From Microbotryomycetes sp. JL201 (lineage: Eukaryota; Basidiomycota; Microbotryomycetes), in assembly GCA_033819885.1 (NCBI GenBank), contig JAQYUZ010000002.1, forward strand, positions 62,001 through 126,000: a stretch of DNA of 64,000 nt, given 5' to 3'. A program made the translations under genes and the position numbers. How positions within the stretch are numbered: the first letter of the stretch is position 1; each line of letters opens with the position of its first letter. Below are positions 349 through 62,391 of this stretch, in pieces. The notes below the pieces were generated by a model that saw only the letters and a list, made by a program, of their open reading frames with translations, was not told the DNA's origin and did not search any database.

Positions 349-1909
349 ATGTCGGACTCTACTCCGAGTCAAGATTTGTCTGCGCAGGCCCACGTGAGAG
401 CGCCATCGACGCTGGCGTCGCTGATCGCGGGCTCGTTCGGCGGAGCGTCCCAAGTTGTCGTCGGACATCCTCTCGTGAGTCGAAACAGCGTCCGAACGCG
501 GCATCAAAAAGTGCTCAACGGGCTCATCTCAAGGACTTGATCAAAACGCGAGCTCAAACGGCACCGAGAGGCGCATTCAAAGGTCCGATCGACATTGCGC
601 TGCAAACGATCAGAAAGGAAGGCATACTCGCTTTGTACAAGGGCATCTCTCCTCCATTACTAGGCGTTGCAGGAGTCAACTCGTTGTTGTTTGCAAGCAA
701 CGCGTACGCGAGAAAGCTGGTCAGCCCGTATCCACACTTGACGATTCAACAAGTGGCGTTGGCAGGAGCGATTGCAGGCGCGGCGCAGAGCGTCTTGGCA
801 TCGCCAGTTGAGATGTTCAAGGTACGTCAGCTCGACCACACGACGCGCGTCGCCAGCTGGAACGGCCGCAAGATCGCGACTCGGTTCGACCTGGCAGCTC
901 GGGACTGGAACCAGCGACAGATTTTGAGAAAAGCACACGCTGGTCGCATTTGGGAAAAATAATCTTTGTTCCAATTGGTCGCTCTGGCTTGCGACGCGGT
1001 CGTCGTCACTAACAAGCGTTCCCGATTGACTCTTTTCAGCAAACAGGTCCGAATGCAGGCACAGTACAGCACCAACCCGAAAAAAATGAGAGAGATCGTG
1101 TCAGATATGTACACAAAGTACGGATGGTCAAAGGGCATCATGAGAGGGTATTGGGTTCGTCGTCGATGCCGTCGGAGTTTGACCAGATCTGACTCGGATC
1201 GGTCACGCAGATTACTGTGGTCAGGGAGATTCCGGCATATGGAGGCTTTTATGCAGGGTATGAGTATACAAAACGGACATTTCAGCAGAAGCTACAGGTG
1301 ACCGATCTGCCGGTGTGGGCCACATTGACGGCTGGTGCCATGGGCGGTATCGCATATTGGACGGCTTGGTGAGCGCGGACCGTAATCACCGCTTGAAAGG
1401 AGTCTGACCAAGACATTTGCCATTGAAGCTATCCTCTCGGTCAGTAGATGGTCGCATTGCCGCGCTCACTACTGAACGGATTCTCAAATAATTGTACAGA
1501 TGTCGTCAAGTCGCGGATACAACTACAAGAAGCGCCGCCCGGACGCAACTACATTTTTGCAACATTTGCAAAGGTCTATCGAGAAGAAGGCGCGGGTGCG
1601 TTCGTAAGAGGTATCACACCAACATGTCAGTCATGCACGCCGAGAAACTCCGTGAGACCTTTGCTGCTAGCTGACCTCGATCTGACGTCCAACAGACATT
1701 CGAGCGTGAGGTTTTCGAATGCCAGGCAATGGTGTGCTTTCTGTTGCTGACTGTACCAACTTTTCTGGCGCAGTGTGCCTGCAGCGGCCTCTACGGTGTG
1801 CACGCTCGGGTTACTGGACCTGCGTGTTCAATTTCGCTGACACGTGAAACTGCAGTTCCTCGCATTCGAGTTTGCCATGTCATTCCTGCAAAAGCATACG
1901 AATTTGTAG
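349..1909 (+). CDS. mitochondrial carrier family (SLC25) protein
   Basis: Solute carrier of the mitochondrial inner membrane; the substrate cannot be told from the sequence. My model has nine exons: 349-474, 534-821, 1047-1154, 1211-1368, 1429-1439, 1500-1625, 1696-1705, 1774-1795 and 1856-1909. Together they give 300 residues, the usual carrier length, as three repeats of about 100. The PX(D/E)XX(K/R) signatures are GHPLDLIKTR (repeat 1, across an intron), ASPVEMFKVRMQ (repeat 2, across an intron) and CYPLDVVKSRIQ (repeat 3). The third exists only if an 11-nt exon is included. A 10-nt exon similarly rebuilds YIRAVPAAAST near the end. Each repeat also carries the usual glycine-rich second-helix motif (YKGISPPLLG, MRGYW, VRGITPT). 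The donor after MRGYW (GTTCGT at 1155) is weak and is the least certain join. General type resembles the carnitine/ornithine carrier branch, but this is only an impression. Confidence 0.88.
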
Positions 1910-34700: not shown

Positions 34701-37700
34701 AAATCTATCGCTTGAGGTGATTCATCGTGCGAAGGTACAGGCTGTAGCGCTGGTGATTCGAACGGAGACTGATCGCGCCAATCTGTCGTCACCTGCTGCT
34801 CCTGCTGCTGTTCTTGCGCTGCGTTGGCCAAAGCTTCGCTCGCCTTCTGCTCCCATTCTTGCCTAACTTTTTCGGCATACAAGATCGTGTTGCGAAGGCG
34901 GATGACCGAGTTGAGTTTGAAACGGATTTGATCATCAACGTCGGCCACGAGACGGTTCAGCGCTGCTTCTTCAACCGTCGGTCTTTGCCACCTCATCACG
35001 ACCGCTAGGTTGCTCTCGGACTGCGAACGGGAGAGTTCAGTAAGTATGATCGCATAGGTCACGTGCGACAATCCTCACGTTTGGACTGAGCAGCCTCTGC
35101 TCCTGAATTGGCACGTCCACCGTGTCGTCATGGACTGCAGGCGTCGAAATGGATTCGGCGGTCTGTAAGATGTCGTGTAGCAGGTCAAGAACACGATGCT
35201 GATTCTTTTTAACTTGATGACCTTGCGGTTTCGGTGAAAGTGGCGGCTTGAGGTTTTCAAGGTAGTTCGGCGGCGTTGGCGCGTCTGGCGAGACCTTGAG
35301 CGGAATGCCGCGGTACTCCGGTGGCTGATCCGCACCCTCGAAATCCTCAATCGCCATCGAAATTTCGTCAATGGTGCTTGCAAGCTCTTTGAGCCTGTCA
35401 TTGCACTCGGAAATGTCGCCTTCGAGTCGATGCGTCTCGTTGCACGTCTCATTGTGCTTCTCAAAGAACCAGACTGGCGTTGGTCGCTCGCAAATCCGAC
35501 ATAGGACTGTTTCAAGCGAGAATGGCTTGGTGGGAAGCGGCACAGTCGGGTCGCTTGCTGCTCGTCTCGGTCGCGTGTCTATGCCGTATCGAGCTAGAGC
35601 TTCGTCTTGCTGAGCTGCCATGTCAGGCGAGAGGGGAGCTGGGCGGATAACCCACATCGTGTGCGAAGGTCGCCCGGTCAAGCCATCGAGCATGAGCATG
35701 CCCTTGCCTTCCATCGCCTCGTATAGGTCGTCTGGAGGTTCCTCGTCCTGCGACGATTGCGACGTCGCGCCGACGCGTAATCTAAAACTGACTTCTACCG
35801 TATGTGAGTCGTCGGCTTCTAGCTGACGGGTCGCCTCGGCAAAAACCGCAGCATCGTCAGGATAGACAAACTCAGAGATAGGAAGATCGATGCATTCAGA
35901 TGGAATCAAGCTGGAAGCGCACAAGCATCAGCGAAGAGCCCACGAGATGAGCATAGACTGATCACTCACCCAGTCAGCTCTTCCCATGCAGAGCTCAGGA
36001 ACTGGAATAGCTGGCCGTCGAGACTGAGCTCCATCAGCAAAGTCGAGCTTCGAATTTCGTCAACTGTCTGACGCAAGTCGGCGGCGCGCTGATCTGCAAA
36101 CTCTTGAGAAGTTCGCCCTTCAGGTGCTCCAGGCCGCTCAGGCCGTGCTTGATCTACGATTGTCGTAGCGTCCTCGCGCATCTGTTCTGGAGCTGGCACG
36201 CCCAAGTCGATTCCTAGCGGCGACCATTTTGAAGGCGCGGGCAATGACATTGGCTCGACGTAGGAAGATTGACTGTCACCTCGACCTCTTTGCAGTTCCG
36301 AGCCTGGCGCTTTGTCCTCGTTACCGGTAGCAGCTTTAGCAACAAACAAGATTGGTTCGGCGTCCGCATCATCGGCATCCTCGAAAGACCAGAACCCTTT
36401 TTCTGCTTCCCACCACTCGATGACTCGACTGAGTCCAGCAACAGCCAGCAAAAGCTGAACGTACCAACCTCGACAAGGCAGCTCTGGATTGTCTTCCCAA
36501 GCTTTACCAATCTGCTGGACTCGATTGATAAACTCGGCGCATGTTCCAGGCTGGTTTGTCAACTTGGTCACCGGCGTATCTAGAATCTCAGTTGCGACGG
36601 TAATGATTTCTTGAAGAAGCACAATGAAAGCGCTCTGTGCAAGATTGGCGTTCCCCGCTGCCGCAGATTGACTCGAGTGGCCAGGCGATCGTGAGCCAGT
36701 AGAAACCGTCCTCAACTGAGGCGGCATGGGCGATCGAGACCGAGAATTTGACCTCGAGCTCGTAGCTGACCCAGCGCGAGATTTTTGGCGCGAATCGGTC
36801 AACGAGTAACCGCTAAAGTCCGGGTTTCGTGGAGCGCTCGTCAAATGACGTTTGCGAGGCGCAAGTGACGCACGTCGAGGGGAGCGCGCGCGTTGTGTTG
36901 TAGTCACTGACGGTCTTCTTGTGCCACTACTTGCCGAGGAAGGCGTTCCCGTACTCAGAAGAGGCCCCTTGACTCGCGACTGCGGTCTGCTCGTCGCGCC
37001 GTCCGAGTCAGTGTAGCCGGCGTTCTCTTCTTGATCCACGTCAGCCAGTGCTTCACTCTCTGAATCCATCTCGAACGTCGTTGGAGCAGGAGCCAAAGGA
37101 TCTTCGATCGCCATTTCTCCAAATTGTCCCTCTTCAAATGGCGCTGCCGGCAGTCCAGGGGTTGCCAGTTCGTGATGCAATTCTGCCTCGACGTAAGCCG
37201 AGATGCCGTGAACAATCTTGCGCAGCTCTTTGTCGCATACTTCTTTGGCGCTGACGAGCCGAAATCTGATCTGTTGCCGGACAGTGTGCATAGAGAAGTT
37301 TGGTGCATTTTTTGGCTCCTTTGCGTCTTTGGATCCAGATGAAGCCGGGACACTGCGGACAGGGAATGCCGTTGAGGTCGGAACGATGTACGGCGTCTGG
37401 TCCCAAGGAGCTGGCTCTGGCAAAGTGCTCGTGTCTGCTCTCGGCTGGATCCGCACGGGCTCAGACGGCGTAGCCATCGTTGAAGTAGGCAGCGGAGGCG
37501 AAAAGAAGTGGCCACCTAGAGAGGACGATTGTCTACCAGAACCAGAGTTGCTCGAGCTCGAGTGAGAAGTAGTGGCGGACGGCAACGAGCTGTTTCGTTT
37601 TGGAGGCACGAGCGCGTTGAACGACGGCCCAAGATTGAGCGACAAGCCTGGATTACGTTTGCGAGAGTCTGACCGGGCCGTACCGCCTTCGCTCTCTGGA

Positions 37701-40700
37701 TCCGATCCAGAAGACGATAAAGTTTGCTTCGGAGGTGCCAAGCGCCCTGTTGAGACTACTCGAGCGCCAGGTGCGAGCGCACCCGCTGGAACGAACCTCG
37801 ATCTGCTTGTATCTGCCTGGCTTTGAGCTTTGTCTGCTTCAGCGTCGGCAGTCGTTGGTCGAGACTTGAGATCCTGGGCCGACGAAACATTTCGAAGCGA
37901 CGGCCGCTTCGGCGTCGTCGGTCTGACAAACGTGCCCGAAGGTCGAGAGATGATCGGTACTAGCTCGCTCGTCGGAACAGAGTGGTCGACACTTGTACGT
38001 CGACCTTGTGCTCGATGACGCAGCTCTTCCTCCGGCGTGGCCGAGAAGCTCGACCGCACAGCGCTCCACCAGGCGTCAATCTTGTGTCCCAGTTTATTGA
38101 AGTTGCGACGCTTCTTGACGCCCGGTGAGCCAGTGGTTGTCGACAACCTCGATGTGGTTCTCGACAGCGGCTCATAAGGCACCGAAGTGGTTGGAGCTGA
38201 TGTCGGTTTTGGCTGGAACGCCGAAGAGGAAGACGACGTCGAGAGACCCCCAAGTGGAAAGTACTGATTTGCCTGCTGTGATGGCAAATTGGGCGTCAAA
38301 AAAGCGTCTCCTCCGCCCAAGTTCATCGTCGCTGCGGTCGCTTCGAACGGATTGTACTCGGATGCTGCGTGCGAGAAGCTGATCAGCCATAGCGACCTAT
38401 AGCAGTGTGCGCCAAATCTTTCACCTTTTGTCGACTCTGTCACAACAGCAGATGCACTTTGCGAGAGCTCGCCCTCAGTGTCTTCGGTCACGTCGCCGCG
38501 AGCCTCTCGCTCAGCTCTGAGCTTGGCTTCTTTCATCTTGTTGTACTCGTCCATCCAGTCAACCCACTCAAACTCTTTGCTGCCAATTCCGATGCCAAAG
38601 CCGACTCCCTCGGCCGCCGTGATGTCGGTCTCGAGTGGCGGTTTCGATGAAGACGATGATCCACCCCTGACCAAATCGGCTCCACCCCAAGAAGACGATC
38701 TTGCATGACCGCCCGGCGTCTTTCCTTCAGCAGCGAGGGCGCTCGTACGCCACTTGCGCATTTTTGCCTCTCTCGTCTCTAGCAAGAATTGAGCGTACTC
38801 TTTGGTCGTGTCATCCTCCGTACGGCGACTGTGGTTGCCACCAATGCCATGACTACTTCCCACGCTGGCCGACAACAGATTCTCGCCTGGCGCGATCGAC
38901 ATCCTATGTGAGCTGAGTCGACCGGCACCGCGAGTCGGATCTCGTTGCGAGGTCGTTCGCCGATGCTGACTGAACGAGGCAGGGTCAACGGCGGACGCTT
39001 CAGCCAGAGGAGACAAGCCGAGAGAGAGTGGTGAGACGCCCAAGTCGGCAGAAGATCCGCTCGACATGCTGAAAGGATCTGACGAGGGCGACGTGAACAC
39101 GCTCTTCGAACGTGATCTGTTGCCTGGTGTAACAGAGGGGCCGGCCAGGCGCCCACTTTGAAATGAAAACATTGGCGAGAATGCCGGTGACGCAGACGAG
39201 TGAGCAAGTGAGCTGCCGGGAACGGCAGTCGCAGGCGGTGATTGGCTCGTCGAACCAGCCAGGTTTTCTCGGCTGCTTGTTCGAGACACTGGCCGTGACC
39301 CTGCTCGCGAAGGTCCTCTGGAAGACGCCTGAGACGTCGATTGCGACCGATTGCCCGAGTGCATAGAAGGCGACGCAGATCCAGAAGCCGGCGACGGCGC
39401 ACGTGTGGCAGAAGGTGTCTTCGGAACTCTGATCTCGCCCGTACTTGTAGCACTGATCCCAGAAAATGTTGCATTGAGACCGCTCGCATCTCCGGCATCT
39501 GATGATACAGGCATCGAAGGCCGGAGCTCGAGTGCCGTCCGCACAGATTCGGGCACCTTCTGCAGCTTGATGGCTTCTGCAGGAGGCGGTGCAGCTGGAA
39601 ACGGTGACAATGCGGGGGATGAGAGCTGGCCGGATAGGCTCGTGCGCGAATTGCGCGACAAACCTGGCGAGCCCGGCGCAAACGGCCGCGGAGGCGAGAC
39701 AAGATTGATGGACGCGCGGCGCGAAAGCGAATTCGCCGCAGCAGACATTGCCGGAGAGGACGGTGATGACGATGCGCTGCTAGGCATTATGACGCTATTG
39801 CGTGGCGAGCTTGCAAGGCCTGTCCGATTCGTCTCGAGACTGAGACTGCCAAATGCATCTCCGCGGGACCGTCTCCGGCTCGATGGACTCTCCTCTTGGC
39901 TCGAGCTGCTTCCAACGAAAGATCCGCTGCGACTCGAGATTGACCTGACACGTGCTGCCCGTGCCGTCTTTGCGGAGTCGACTTCCGGCGAGCTGTCGCG
40001 CGGCGCCGGGCTTCGGCGGTCCGACGCACGTTCTCGAGCGCGGGGCGTAGCAGAAGAATGCTCGGGCGAGTCGCCAGCTGACTCGATAGTCGGCAACGAG
40101 ACCGTCTGCGCCAACGGTGACATGTCGGGTTCTGCGCCAGGAAGATCAGCATCAAATGTGAAGGGAGAAGCAAGTCCTGAAGTAGCGCGCGTACCTCCAA
40201 ACAATGGCAAAGATGCCTCCTTCGCAAGCGGACTGCCTGCAGCGCCCAAATTTGAGCTGCCTGTCCTCGTTCTGCCTGCCCACGTGTTGACGAGTTCTTC
40301 CTCCTCATCCTCGTCGTCTTCTGATTCACCGTCGCCATCGTCACCTTTCGCGTTGTCTGCATCCTCTTCTGGACCGGAAGCCTGTGCAAGAGGGGAAGGA
40401 AACAGTGGCGTTGTCGAAAGCCTGACGCTGCTGGGAGCGCCGTTATTTGAAATCGAGATCGGAAGCGGGTTCGTTGCGAAGCCCGTAGCGGCTGAAGAGG
40501 TCGAAGCAGACTGCTCAGAGCTGGATTGGGAATGGTGCGCGTTTGCGAGTGGGATGCCAGTGCTCGTGCGACGACTTGGCGCGGAAGCCGTCAGGCCCGA
40601 AGGTCCGGTTGATGTTGCTGGCCCAGGATCAGCGTCGGCTAGCAACGCGCTGGTCGACATGCCCGAGCCAGCATGTGTTGGCGGTGTTAGTTTGTCAGGC

Positions 40701-41074
40701 AGTTTGTCGTCCTCGCTGTCTTCAAACGAGGTTGCGTCCGTGCTGGACAAGGTCGACGAGATCGAGTCTTGCCGGTGCCGGCCGCGCCGAGACGACGACG
40801 ACAGCGGCGAGCTCGAGTAGTTGCCGCTCGAGACGCGCCTGATCAGGCCCGGAGAAGGGTACGGTCGCGAGCCTGCTTGAGTCGCCGAGCCGACGAGGCC
40901 TGACGCGCCCAGAGACGGCGGCGAGAGCGACGAGGAGGTGGACGACAACGAACTCTGCGACGTTCGCGGGGACAGCGCAGGGCGAGAGGCACTGGCGCGG
41001 GCTTGATTATCTTTGATAGCGCGTCCAGATGCGTCTGTGACGCTTCGAGGGCTGTCGTGGGTGCCCGTGTCCAT
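31731..41074 (-). CDS. RIM15: RIM15-type protein kinase (PAS, zinc-binding, AGC kinase, receiver-like domain)
   Basis: Greatwall-related kinase that drives quiescence and stress programmes downstream of PKA and TOR in fungi. About ten exons give roughly 2,900 residues. The first about 1,300 residues are Ser/Pro-rich and disordered. Ordered sequence begins near 36700 and leads into a PAS-like domain ([24 protein letters not shown], then [12 protein letters not shown]). A Cys/His motif [20 protein letters not shown] follows. The kinase reads [11 protein letters not shown] joined to [18 protein letters not shown] joined to [18 protein letters not shown], an insert of about 110 residues typical of Greatwall/Rim15, then [13 protein letters not shown] and [12 protein letters not shown]. 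The C-terminus is a response-regulator-like domain with [11 protein letters not shown] and GILPKPV. A 60-nt in-frame intron fits at about 38370-38430. Confidence 0.9.
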
Positions 41075-46152: not shown

Positions 46153-48739
46153 ATGGCGTGCGCATCGGCGTGCACGCGAGCTCGATTCGGCTCGGCGCTG
46201 GTGGCCGGCCTCGTGCGGTCCTCACCGACAAGCGCAGACGCCATCAAACCCGTTTCAGCTCGCTTTTTTGCTCACAAAAGCATCAGCACTCGATCCTGGG
46301 CAGCGGAGGGCATGGCGCGGCCGATTACGTCCATTTCGATCGCCGGCTGTTCGACTAGATTACCACTAGCTGCGTTCTCGGGGCGGATACGGAGCAGATT
46401 CGCATCAACGGAAGCCGATCGACCAACAGCGCAATCAGCAACGCAGCGACCAGCTGACGCAGACCGGAACTTGGCTCCGGCGACTTCACCAGACGCGACA
46501 AAAGTCACCAAGCTCGCAGAAAGGGTCCAAATGGGCGAGATCAGGCGTTTGGTTCAACTGGCAAAGCCGGAGCGCAAGACAATCGGCTTGGCAATCGGAC
46601 TCGTCAGTAGCCCTGGCTCGAGGCTCATTCTGGCGTGCTTGCTCACATCTAAGTTACAGCTGTGTGTCTCCTCAACTGTATCACTATCCATACCAATGTT
46701 TATCGGCAAAATTATCGACTTGTTCTCGGGTTCGGCCAAAGACCTGCCCATTTCTGTGCCGACCGCCGCCGGCTTGCTCGCTCTGTTCTTTGCCGTGGGA
46801 GCGGCAGCGAGCATGGGAAGGACCATCTTGATGCGCATCAGCGGTCAAAGAATCGTCGCGCGTCTGCGAGAGGCGGCATATACGAACGTGCTGCGTCAAG
46901 ACATTGGCTGGCAGGATCTACAAGGCACCGCTCGACCGACACCGCTGTCAGACTCTTCGCCGACGGCCCAGAAACAGAACCAAGACGCATCGCCGTCTTC
47001 TACAGCAGTTGCCACAAAAGATACTGGCGTGCGCTCGACCGGAGACATCATCTCCAGGCTTGGTTCAGACGCCGGTATCGTCGGAGAAAGTCTCACTCGC
47101 GAGTTGAGCGAAGGTCTTCGAGCACTCGTTACGGCTACAGTCGGAATCGGTGCCATGCTGTACATTTCGGCTAAATTGACGGCTGTCATGCTGTTGATTG
47201 TGCCGCCGATCTCTATCGCAGCAGTGTTCTATGGTCGATTCCTTAAGAAGCTTTCGCGACGGACTCAAAAAGCTGTCGGTGACATGGTAGCCGTGTCTGA
47301 AGAACGTCTGGGAGCGATCAGAACTGTCCAAGCCTTCAATGCGGTCGAACCTCAAGAAACTCAGCGGTTCAAGGAAAAGGTTGACAAAATCTTTGCACTG
47401 GCGAAGACTGAAGCTTGGGCTTCGGGTCTATTCTACGGCGGCACTGGATTTGCTGGCAACACGACGCTGATTCTGCTGCTGCTGTACGGAGGCTCTCTTG
47501 TGTCTCGCGGCGTCATTAGCGTTGGTGACTTGACTTCGCTCATGGTCTACACGTTCTAGTACGTAGCATCCAGCCTCATGGTTCCGGCGCGTGAACTGAC
47601 CCGTCGCTGTGTAGCATTGGCTCGTCCTTGATCGGCCTTACGTCATTCTTTGGCACAATCATGAAAGGCTTGGGCGCCTCTGCCCGCGTTTTCGAACTAC
47701 TGGACGCAAAGCCAGTCTCTGTTCAACTTGGACAGGGCACCGTATTGCCAGTAACGGCGCCTCCTCGTCGACTCGTCTTTGATGATGTGCACTTTGCGTA
47801 CCCTTCGCGTCCAACGACCGACATTCTGCGTGGAGTCAACCTCGTCATTGAACCAGGTCAGTCGTCCTGCCCAAGACTCGCTGGCGCTCACGGCGCTAAT
47901 CACTGGCTTGGGGACTTTCAGGCACAATCACGAGTATTGCTGGCGGCTCGGGCAGTGGCAAATCTACGCTCGCCAACTTGCTCATCCGTTACTATGATCC
48001 TACGGCTGGGCGTGTGCTGTACGGTGACGAGGACATCCGAACGTACACGCCCGAGTCGTGGCGCAAGCGTATCGCGATCGTGCCTCAGGATCCTGCCTTG
48101 TTTTCAAACACTATCGCCGAGAACAGTCAGTTACTCAGATCGCTTTGGCAGGGACTCTTGCTGAGAAAATGTTTTCCTCTAGTCGCGTACGGCAGACCAA
48201 GTGCAACGAGGGCAGAGATTGAAGAAGCAGCCAGGCTCGCCAACTGTGGGTTTATCGACAGTCTTCCGCGGGGATTTGACACATTGGTCGGAGCACGTGG
48301 CGCTCAGCTGTCGGGTGGACAACGTCAGCGGTTGGCAATTGCCCGCGCGCTCTTGCTGAAGCCGAAAATCTTGGTCTGCGACGAGTAAGTGCGAGCTTTC
48401 GTGACCGTGCTCGATTCAGTCTTGCTGACACGCAAGACGGTTTTCATCAGAGCCACGTCTGCACTTGATGCCGCCAGTGAAAGTCTCGTCAACAAGGCCA
48501 TCAACAATATCTCGACGTCACACTCTTTGACGACCATCCTGATTGCTCATCGCTTGTCTACGATCAAGCAGGCCGACCGCGTCGTGTTTATGGACAATGG
48601 CGTCGTTGCTGAGCAGGGGACATTTGATGAATTGACAAGGGACGGCACTAGGTTCGCAGCTCTGGTGCAGAGTCAAATGTTGATGGGAGGTGCGGCCCCG
48701 CCGACTAGGGATCCACCAGCGAGCGATCACGCTGCGTGA
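46153..48739 (+). CDS. MDL2: mitochondrial ABC half-transporter (Mdl1/Mdl2, ABCB10-like)
   Basis: Half-size exporter of the mitochondrial inner membrane; yeast Mdl1 exports peptides. About seven exons give roughly 740 residues. The Arg/Ser-rich N-terminus is a presequence; an in-frame ATG at 46312 (MARPITSISIAG) gives a shorter, equally plausible one. The membrane domain runs from PMFIGKIIDLFSG to SLIGLTSFFGTIMKGLGAS. The ATPase domain shows VFDDVHFAYPSRP, Walker A GGSGSGKST, IAIVPQDPALFSNTIAEN (Q-loop), the signature LSGGQRQRLAIARALL, Walker B KILVCDE joined by an intron to ATSALDAASE, and the H-loop LIAHRLSTI. A linker of about 40 residues (PLSDSSPTAQKQNQD) is inserted after the RQDIGW loop. 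Whether it is Mdl1 or Mdl2 is not decided. Confidence 0.9.
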
Positions 48740-59836: not shown

Positions 59837-62391
59837 ATGGACCGCCGCCGAGACCCGTCCCCCGCGGCATACAGGCACAGGCACGACGACGAGGACGACA
59901 GGAGACGGTCGAGGCACAGGTCACGCTCGCCAGAACCGGCGTCGCGCGCATACGAGCGCACCACTGAGCGAGACTCGAAACGAACAAGGCGACAAGATGA
60001 CGAGGACGGGCATGACAGGCACAGACACAGAGACAGAGACAGAGATCGCAGGCATCGTGACGACGACGACGACGGCGGCGGCGACAGAGGCAGGCACTCG
60101 AGTCACAAATCGTGAGTGTCTCGCACACACCCGCTGCACCCGACTGCGCTGGCATGGACTGACGTGACTCATATGCTAGCAAATCACACAGACACCGTGA
60201 GACTTCTGCCGAGCGTGCGGCGCGCAAGGCAGAGCGCAAGGCGCAAAAGGCCGCAGACGCCGCATTGCTCTTGCCACCCGAAGCCCGCCTGGCCGCTGCA
60301 GAAACATCCTACTACTCGGCCCAAGACAATCCGTTTCATGATGCCAACCTCGGCGATAAATTCGTCTGGGGCAAAAAGAGGGAAAAGGAACGCAAACAAG
60401 GACTGACTCCGGAAGAGGCAGCCAAGCGAGACATGCAGAGGCGGATAGATTCGCAGGTGCATTCAGCAGTCCACTCGTGTGTGTCTTCATGCCTCAAGCT
60501 GATCGACTGGCACTTGCATCCGACAGCAAGAGATTGAAAAGCTCAACCAAAGACGAGCCCAGCGCGAACAGGAAGAGAAACTGCGCGAGGAAGAGGCTTT
60601 GCGAGCCCAACGCATGGCCGAGTCGGCTCAGATGGCAGCATGGATCGACAAGGAGGACGACTTTCACTTGGAGCAGGCGAAACGCAGGGCAGCGATTCGA
60701 GTTAGAGAACGACGCGCCAAACCGATCGATTACCTCGCGCTCAATCTCAAGTGGAGTCAACCACCCCTGCAGCCCGGCGACGAGGGCTATGACGAGCACG
60801 CCGAAGAGGACGATGGCACTGGCCTCGAAGTCGATTTGGATGAGCCATACGCTATCTTTGACGTGAGCTCTCGGTCTTTATCGGGAAAAACCCTCCCCGC
60901 TCATGTTGTTCAACCGCAGAATCTGACTCTTGAAGACGCCGAGGAGCTTCATGAGGACATCAAGATGTACTTGTCACTCGAAAAGGCCGACCAGAACCTC
61001 GAATTCTGGAGATCACTCTTGATCGTGTCATCGGCTACGCTCGAAGCCTTGCGCGAAGAACGCGCAATCGGTCACAGCGCATTTGCCGAACAAAGACGAG
61101 CGAATGCTGCCGTAAAGGACGAAATAACGGCGCTGCTCGCCGGCAAAACGTTCGAACAGCTTGTCGCTCTCCAAGGCCAAGTCCAACGCAAGCTCGCTAG
61201 CGGCGAACCTGTCGACGTAGACTACTGGGAAGGCTTGCTGAAAGAACTGATCGTGTGGAAAGCAAAGGCAAAACTGCGCGACATGCACGAAATCGTGCTT
61301 CAGAACCGACTTGAGCAATTGAGGAAGAAGCAGCGCGACGAGGCGCTCAAGATCAAGGAAGATTTGCAAACCGCACTGGCTGATTCAAAGGCCAGGAACG
61401 AAGCTAGCGACGAGGCTCGAGACGAAGAGGACGAAGAAATGCCGGAGCAAGATCAAGGTCCAGCCATCGAAGCTGCTCCATGGGATCAAGTCCTTGAGCC
61501 CCCTCGTTTGACCAAGTTGCCGGACGAGTACAAGCAACTTCCGATTATCGACCCTGCGGAACAGTGGCGTCGTCTCGTCAGTTGCTCGCTCTCGAGTCAG
61601 TCTGCTTCTATGCTGACCACACAGACACAATCTCACAGATTGAAGCGCGCCGCAAGATCATTTCGACCCGCTTTGTTGCAAAAAAGCAACAACAACAAGC
61701 GCCTACAGCGGTCGGAGCTTCATCAAACGGCAAGGACGAAGAAATCTACCAGGCGGCCGTTGGGCAAGGCATGGACGAGGAGGAAGAATTGTTCAACTTG
61801 GAAGTCGAGATGGCAAAACAGTCTTACTCTTGGGAAGACAAGTACAGGCCTCGTAAACCCAGGTACTTTAACAAGGTTCACACGGGTTACGAATGGAACA
61901 AGTACAACCAGACGCATTACGAGTACGTTCACCTTATTTCGCGCTCGGAAGCGCCTCTGCTGACCTTCGACGAGCAGCTCGGACAATCCGCCACCAAAAG
62001 TCGTACAAGGATACAAATTCAACATCTTCTGTATGTGTACTCTCTGCTTCAGCTTGATCGCAGAACAGTATTGACGGCACTATTGCAGATCCGGACTTGA
62101 TTGACAAATCGAAAGCGCCACAGTTTCGCATCATTCGCAACGCAAAAGACGACGAGACTGCAACGCTCTTGTTCACCGCAGGACCGTAAGTCGTGCTTTA
62201 TAAACAGTCTACATTCCTGTCGCTGACGGGTAGTCTGACACGTATCTTTGGGCAGTCCTTACGAAGATATTGCCTTTCAGATCGTCAACAAACCTTGGGA
62301 AAGGTCTCACAAGCGCGGGTTCAGGTCAACTTTTGACAGAGGCGTCTTGCAGTTGCACTTTACGTTCCAGCGACAGTTCTATCGTAAATAG
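59837..62391 (+). CDS. cactin, splicing factor
   Basis: Nuclear spliceosome-associated protein needed for faithful splicing (known from fission yeast Cay1 and animal cactin). About eight exons give roughly 700 residues. The N-terminus is an Arg/Asp/His/Ser-rich domain (RHRDRDRDRRHRDDDDDGG). Next come AQDNPFHDANLGDKFVWGKK, the mid-domain (PIDYLALNLKWSQ, DAEELHEDIKMYLSLEKADQNLEFW, DVDYWEGLLKELIVWKAKAKLRDMHE) and an acidic linker. The conserved C-terminal domain has EDKYRPRKPRYFNKVHTGYEWNKYNQTHY, QGYKFNIFYPDLIDKSKAPQF, DETATLLFTAGPPYEDIAFQIVNKPWERSHKRGFRSTFDRGVLQLHF and ends RQFYRK. Several of these are formed across introns. Start ATG 59837. Confidence 0.92.

Follow-up and report, generated by a model that had tools for sequence, protein, structure and literature searches.

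Very small exons in several paralogues of one gene family have a precedent in one fungal genome: for the P450 genes of Phanerochaete chrysosporium, the passages concerned report exons down to 6 bp, frequent introns of 45–55 bp and many paralogues (PMC1184071). The mitochondrial carriers of the fungal genome analysed here share this likeness but belong to a transporter family and have their small exons concentrated at one motif, a preference on which those P450 passages are silent (PMC1184071). A micro-exon in a fungal gene is also described for Xlr2 of Trichoderma virens, where the relevant part of the report distinguishes a micro-exon form made in low glucose from a short form made in high glucose; our carrier likewise contains predicted micro-exons but, as far as its sequence suggests, is without sign of such regulation (PMC11121469). 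For carriers themselves, Monne et al. 2026 state that human intron positions are only exceptionally conserved in fungi and describe recurring intron positions, as in the genome analysed here, and the unhyphenated word 'microexon' is absent from the paper (PMC13385207). Among the literature matches listed, none dealt with micro-exons in fungal mitochondrial carriers.

SLC25 carriers (PF00153) are made of three repeats, each with the signature PX[DE]XX[KR], and the protein considered here has the same layout, with nothing that stands out. The gene is predicted to encode an ordinary, intact mitochondrial carrier (SLC25/Mito_carr) with a putative transport role, and it is the predicted gene structure that is the unusual part. 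The window is the whole 64,000-nt stretch analysed, positions 62,001–126,000 of contig JAQYUZ010000002.1 of Microbotryomycetes sp. JL201, and the gene lies at 349–1909 on its forward strand. An earlier note had proposed nine exons, two of them micro-exons of 11 and 10 nt, and its coordinates for these two proved right, the reading frame and an unprimed alignment agreeing on them. The features of the model, each exon with the evidence for it, are as follows.

349–474 (+): exon 1, 126 nt, from the start codon (picked by eye; profile coverage of the gene starts at 409) to GHPL, the start of signature 1; frame and spliced alignment
534–821 (+): exon 2, 288 nt, DLIKTR... to PVEMFK (signature 2); frame and spliced alignment
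1047–1154 (+): exon 3, 108 nt, with donor GTTCGT at 1155; frame and spliced alignment
1211–1368 (+): exon 4, 158 nt; frame and spliced alignment
1369–1428 (+): intron, 60 nt, GTGAGC...AAG, with CTGAC 21 nt upstream of the 11-nt exon
1429–1439 (+): micro-exon, 11 nt, holding the final base of a Cys codon, all of Tyr-Pro-Leu and the opening base of Asp, in the third signature; frame, Pfam, spliced alignment, shuffles and penalty series
1440–1499 (+): intron, 60 nt, GTCAGT...CAG, without CTRAY, with CTGAA 24 nt upstream of exon 6
1500–1625 (+): exon 6, 126 nt, DVVKSRIQ... to RGITPT; frame and spliced alignment
1626–1695 (+): intron, 70 nt, GTCAGT...CAG, with CTGAC 21 nt and 10 nt upstream of the 10-nt exon
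1696–1705 (+): micro-exon of 10 nt, end of Tyr, Ile-Arg and start of Ala (start of helix 6); frame, Pfam, spliced alignment and shuffles
1706–1773 (+): intron, 68 nt, GTGAGG...CAG, with CTGAC 23 nt upstream of the 22-nt exon
1774–1795 (+): small exon of 22 nt, end of Ala, VPAAAST; frame and spliced alignment
1796–1855 (+): intron, 60 nt, GTGTGC...CAG, with CTGAC 15 nt upstream of exon 9
1856–1909 (+): exon 9, 54 nt, FLAFEF...TNL and stop; frame and spliced alignment, the profile reaching 1891

Joined, these exons give 903 nt, the 301 codons including the stop that had been counted before, and a protein of 300 amino acids; the frame has no internal stops, all eight introns run GT...AG and seven of the eight are 56–70 nt long. 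An end of exon 3 at 1148 was rejected, being without a GT donor and giving a total of only 299 codons. The whole protein matches Pfam Mito_carr (PF00153) in three stretches at 206.7 bits against a cut-off of 22.3, which bears out the proposed carrier identity, and the signature is present in all three repeats (PLDLIK, PVEMFK and PLDVVK). In a comparison with the PDB, eight distinct chain sequences matched, the best at 61.5 bits, indicating family membership only. The pair RE in helix 4 presumably resembles that of carriers of basic amino acids and carnitine. Pattern searches for relatives returned three matches in a viral set (viral_contigs) and 52 in a bacterial and archaeal set (genome_contigs), none of which was confirmed.

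The third signature, PLDVVK, requires the 11-nt exon. At this exon and at the 10-nt exon the junctions read CYPLDVVKSRIQ and TYIRAVPAAAST. Joining 1368 to 1500 without the 11-nt exon places a TGA at the junction, and omission of the 10-nt or 22-nt exon causes a frameshift. The earlier note's claims that the 11-nt exon rebuilds this signature and that the 10-nt exon, followed by the 22-nt exon at 1774–1795, gives YIRAVPAAAST hold in the joined frame, the alignment agreeing on both. Against Mito_carr, repeat 3 scored 88.7 bits with both micro-exons present, 67.7 bits when Cys-Tyr-Pro-Leu was left out with the frame forced, and 67.3 bits when the 10-nt exon was skipped. We then aligned the locus, by a splice-aware Viterbi method, to a profile of 28 uninterrupted repeats taken from the same genome's other carriers, the gene under study excluded; the alignment, run on the raw sequence with no exon hints, recovered all internal boundaries of the nine-exon model. 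When the interiors of the two gaps were replaced by dinucleotide shuffles, none of 300 attained the true score for 1369–1499 and none of 300 for 1626–1773. Spliced alignment can invent micro-exons where a motif is missing: an internal exon no longer than 15 nt appeared in 39 of the 300 first-gap shuffles and in three of the 300 second-gap shuffles, in each case at a lower score. Because no shuffle of either gap reached the true score and the frame is lost on skipping, the predicted micro-exons are needed for the conserved protein, beyond what chance would supply.

The two are not equally firm. Forbidding the 11-nt exon cost 14.5 nats and forbidding the 10-nt exon a modest 4.3 nats, and the 11-nt exon was retained at each of the five intron penalties tried (−3, −5, −7, −9 and −11). 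The 10-nt and 22-nt exons withstood the three milder penalties; under −9 and −11 the local alignment breaks off at 1654, and these two exons and the last one are missing from it. On the nats lost and the penalty series, therefore, the predicted 11-nt exon is very secure, and the predicted 10-nt exon secure but less so. The 22-nt exon at 1774–1795 was equalled in score by one of 120 shuffles. When internal exons of up to 24 nt were disallowed, the model came out with a wrong repeat 3 (97.5 versus 116.8 nats), lacking Tyr-Pro-Leu of the signature and everything from Tyr-Ile-Arg onward. The gene is a concrete case in which imposing a minimum exon size on the gene model would damage both the third signature and the last helix. 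A database entry for the protein may be wrong, as the earlier note supposed.

We looked for comparable exons in the other carriers of the genome (17.15 Mb in 92 contigs). At least 94 exon-level Pfam matches were grouped by hand into 37 other carrier loci, which with the gene under study makes 38; a score above 90 defined a well-modelled carrier, and the 32 that passed entered the intron counts, the six scoring 90 or less being left out. L050 and L055, with called exons of 11 and 12 nt, are among those six. In the 32 carriers, with GT donors only, 13 of 145 internal exons are 24 nt or shorter, and these fall in nine carriers, the gene under study included:

gene under study: 11, 10 and 22 nt
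L025: 14 nt
L029: 19 nt
L032 (G000:C27:193500-196200): 5 nt, in the signature of repeat 1
L035 (G000:C19:44700-47000): 15 nt in repeat 1 and 17 nt in repeat 3
L037: 21 nt
L042: 22 nt
L048: 24 and 12 nt
L049: 22 nt

For 12 of the 13, including those of 5, 12, 14, 15 and 17 nt, none of 120 shuffles attained the true score; in L048 (12-nt exon) and L037 (21-nt exon) the best shuffle came within 1 nat of it. At the 5-nt exon of L032, 69 of 120 shuffles yielded some small exon, though none attained its score. Eight of the 13 overlap profile positions 18–27, which hold PX[DE]XX[KR], the overlap in L042 being partial only. As modelled, the micro-exons of the gene under study are not isolated among the genome's carriers. 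Both small exons of L035 appear to bear the signature, and this locus is the nearest parallel to the gene.

Splice signals were counted over the 184 introns of the 32 well-modelled carriers, the gene under study included. Their median length is 63.5 nt; a CTRAY element lies 8–45 nt before the 3′ end in 117–118 of them, the count shifting with the distance convention, compared with 14 of 184 reverse complements and 12.7% after shuffling. CAG is the acceptor in 149 and AAG in 11. Around the two micro-exons all predicted splice sites are GT donors and AG acceptors, one of them the AAG upstream of the 11-nt exon, and CTRAY is present in three of the four flanking introns; 1440–1499 is without it, as is the intron 475–533 earlier in the gene. 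Short introns with their own signals can be recognised as units (intron definition), and exon size then matters little. We consider it very probable, from the predicted structure, that the gene is an intact SLC25 carrier that is spliced constitutively, with its 11-nt and 10-nt exons included by intron definition, and that the 11-nt exon came from two introns flanking an intron-dense signature. The eight introns would be removed constitutively from the message, and exons as short as 11 and 10 nt would be tolerated with each short intron carrying its own donor, branch-like site and acceptor; exon size would hardly matter here because each short intron is recognisable as a unit.

The modest cost of losing the 10-nt exon leaves a slim chance that the 11-nt exon is real and the end of the gene is spliced otherwise, exon 6 extending as far as 1651 or 1654 and neither of the next two exons (10 and 22 nt) being used. 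It is to this end of the gene that the stop at 1654 under penalties −9 and −11 points, and with the 10-nt exon forbidden the alignment joins 1500–1651 to a 6-nt exon at 1726–1731 and is only 4.3 nats worse. That path, however, needs a still smaller exon and reads CQSCTPRNSAM where the nine-exon model reads YIRAVPAAAST; moreover, the 88.7 bits of repeat 3 with both exons, against 67.3 bits with the 10-nt exon skipped, and the failure of all 300 shuffles of the 1626–1773 gap to attain the true score favour the nine-exon ending.

It is also improbable, if somewhat less so, that the micro-exons are regulated cassettes, skipping of which would give a frameshifted message that is destroyed or a truncated protein, tuning the level of the carrier. 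The lengths would suit such a device, 11, 10 and 22 nt being no multiples of three and a skip of the 11-nt exon leading to an immediate TGA, as would the rarer AAG acceptor of the 11-nt exon and the microexon switch that the part of the report concerned describes for Xlr2 of T. virens (PMC11121469). Against this, the donors fit the genome consensus, the acceptors of the other small exons are CAG, no test in the present analysis pointed to regulation, and small exons were called in eight other modelled carriers, which suggests routine splicing. That the gene is a decaying pseudogene and its micro-exons an over-fitted reading is barely credible: it has no close paralogue, the best-scoring modelled carrier being 33% identical over 282 aligned positions, but nine exons with an intact frame, GT-AG sites, mostly branch-like sites and a three-repeat Pfam match are hard to reconcile with decay.

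Introns of the genome's carriers crowd at the signature. Of 184 introns, eight lie in insert positions and were uncounted, giving n = 176; of these, 53 fall at profile positions 18–27, where 20.3 were expected over the 32 carriers. This window was chosen after seeing the data, a choice that an all-window scan allows for and binomial tests do not, and in 20,000 uniform simulations the fullest ten-position window held 42 introns versus the real 53. The 28 repeats used to train the profile come from genes also counted for introns. With GT donors only, the same window holds 53 of 169 introns, and 49 of 161 without the gene under study; by repeat, it holds 24 of 67 in repeat 1 and 21 of 56 in repeat 3, and repeat 2 alone is unenriched (8 of 46, expected 5.3, P 0.15). 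Intron density follows conservation along the repeat weakly (Spearman 0.23, P 0.03).

Several other causes of the crowding were considered and rejected. An artefact of the aligner would have shown on random re-insertion of 1104 introns, which, counted over profile positions, placed 14.4% of calls in the window where 13.8% truly lay, against 30% in the real data; 870 of 966 re-inserted introns were recovered exactly. Ascertainment through long exons failed twice, the mirror window at 64–73 holding 20 of 169 introns (expected 19.3) and the signature window still holding 43 of 133 (expected 15.5) when the repeat with the longest uninterrupted stretch was omitted from each gene. Proto-splice context does not account for it, the exon context of the junctions predicting 20.7 of 176 rather than 53, nor does shared ancestry alone, with 36 of 140 distinct combinations of repeat, position and phase in the window where 16.3 were expected. 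GC donors were dismissed by the GT-only rerun. As a control within the same genome we modelled 40 protein kinase genes, taken from the top of a list of at least 153 exon-level matches. No ten-position window stood out among them (12 of 136 introns, P 0.56), a weaker control in that its 136 introns are spread over 263 positions at a score cut-off of 60 versus 90, so that a mild hot spot could escape it. Internal exons of 24 nt or less made up three of 102 in the kinases.

We propose only tentatively, with more doubt than confidence, that in this lineage the signature, which closes the odd-numbered helices, is a genuine hot spot for introns, struck repeatedly in different carriers and in repeats 1 and 3 at varied codons and phases and leaving the most conserved residues alone on exons of 5–22 nt, its introns either kept by selection or favoured by insertion. 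Under selection, introns at the signature would be kept, for example, where an unspliced message then makes no working or toxic carrier; under insertion, intron gain would prefer the DNA of the signature. Monne et al., writing in Mol Biol Evol in 2023, reportedly found that some carrier intron positions recur at threefold-related places, and through these positions the hot spot may be partly known already. In a family whose members each consist of three related repeats, the crowding opens the old question of intron placement to testing. Should the hot spot recur in other fungi, comparison of the paralogous repeats could set introns that were inherited against those gained repeatedly. Directly after the signature lysine (position 27, phase 0), eight carriers have one intron each, between them in all three repeats, possibly as a relic or as repeated gain at one place.

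An intron at positions 17–28 is found in 49 of 96 repeats, and two or more in seven of 96, where a Poisson distribution would give 11.2. Because double hits are no more frequent than that, no special pairing of introns need be invoked, and the micro-exons appear to mark places where an intron-prone stretch was hit twice by chance. For the 11-nt exon, two introns would have landed either side of PX[DE]XX[KR], where carrier introns concentrate. Of the introns bordering it, the upstream one, in phase 2 at position 19 of repeat 3, is common to the paralogue L048. The downstream one, in phase 1 at position 23 of repeat 3, is absent from the four best-scoring paralogues, L037, L024, L048 and L047, though an intron at position 23 is present in L038; this distribution makes it probable that the exon was created by the gain of an intron next to an existing, older one. 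The other two small exons, of 10 and 22 nt, are not in the hot spot but between three close introns at positions 68, 71 and 79 of repeat 3, and no other modelled carrier shares any of these three. Micro-exons in the carriers of this genome seem, for the most part, to be side effects of intron crowding at one functional motif.

Some minor observations concern other parts of the genome and the window. Two pairs of kinase fragments, at G000:C21:14551-14913 on the reverse strand and C21:203940-204302 on the forward strand, have identical scores and lie some 189 kb from each other on one contig, oppositely oriented, a pattern suggestive of a large inverted duplication or an assembly effect. In the window, an uninterrupted open frame of 1702 codons runs at 35969–41074 on the reverse strand, with no Pfam match at E 0.001; it is long for a genome with such intron-rich carrier genes. 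On the forward strand, an open frame at 46153–47556 contains an ABC transporter membrane region (PF00664, 165.1 bits), and one at 60599–61960 matches cactin, a splicing-linked protein, over the whole of its mid region (PF10312, 204 bits).
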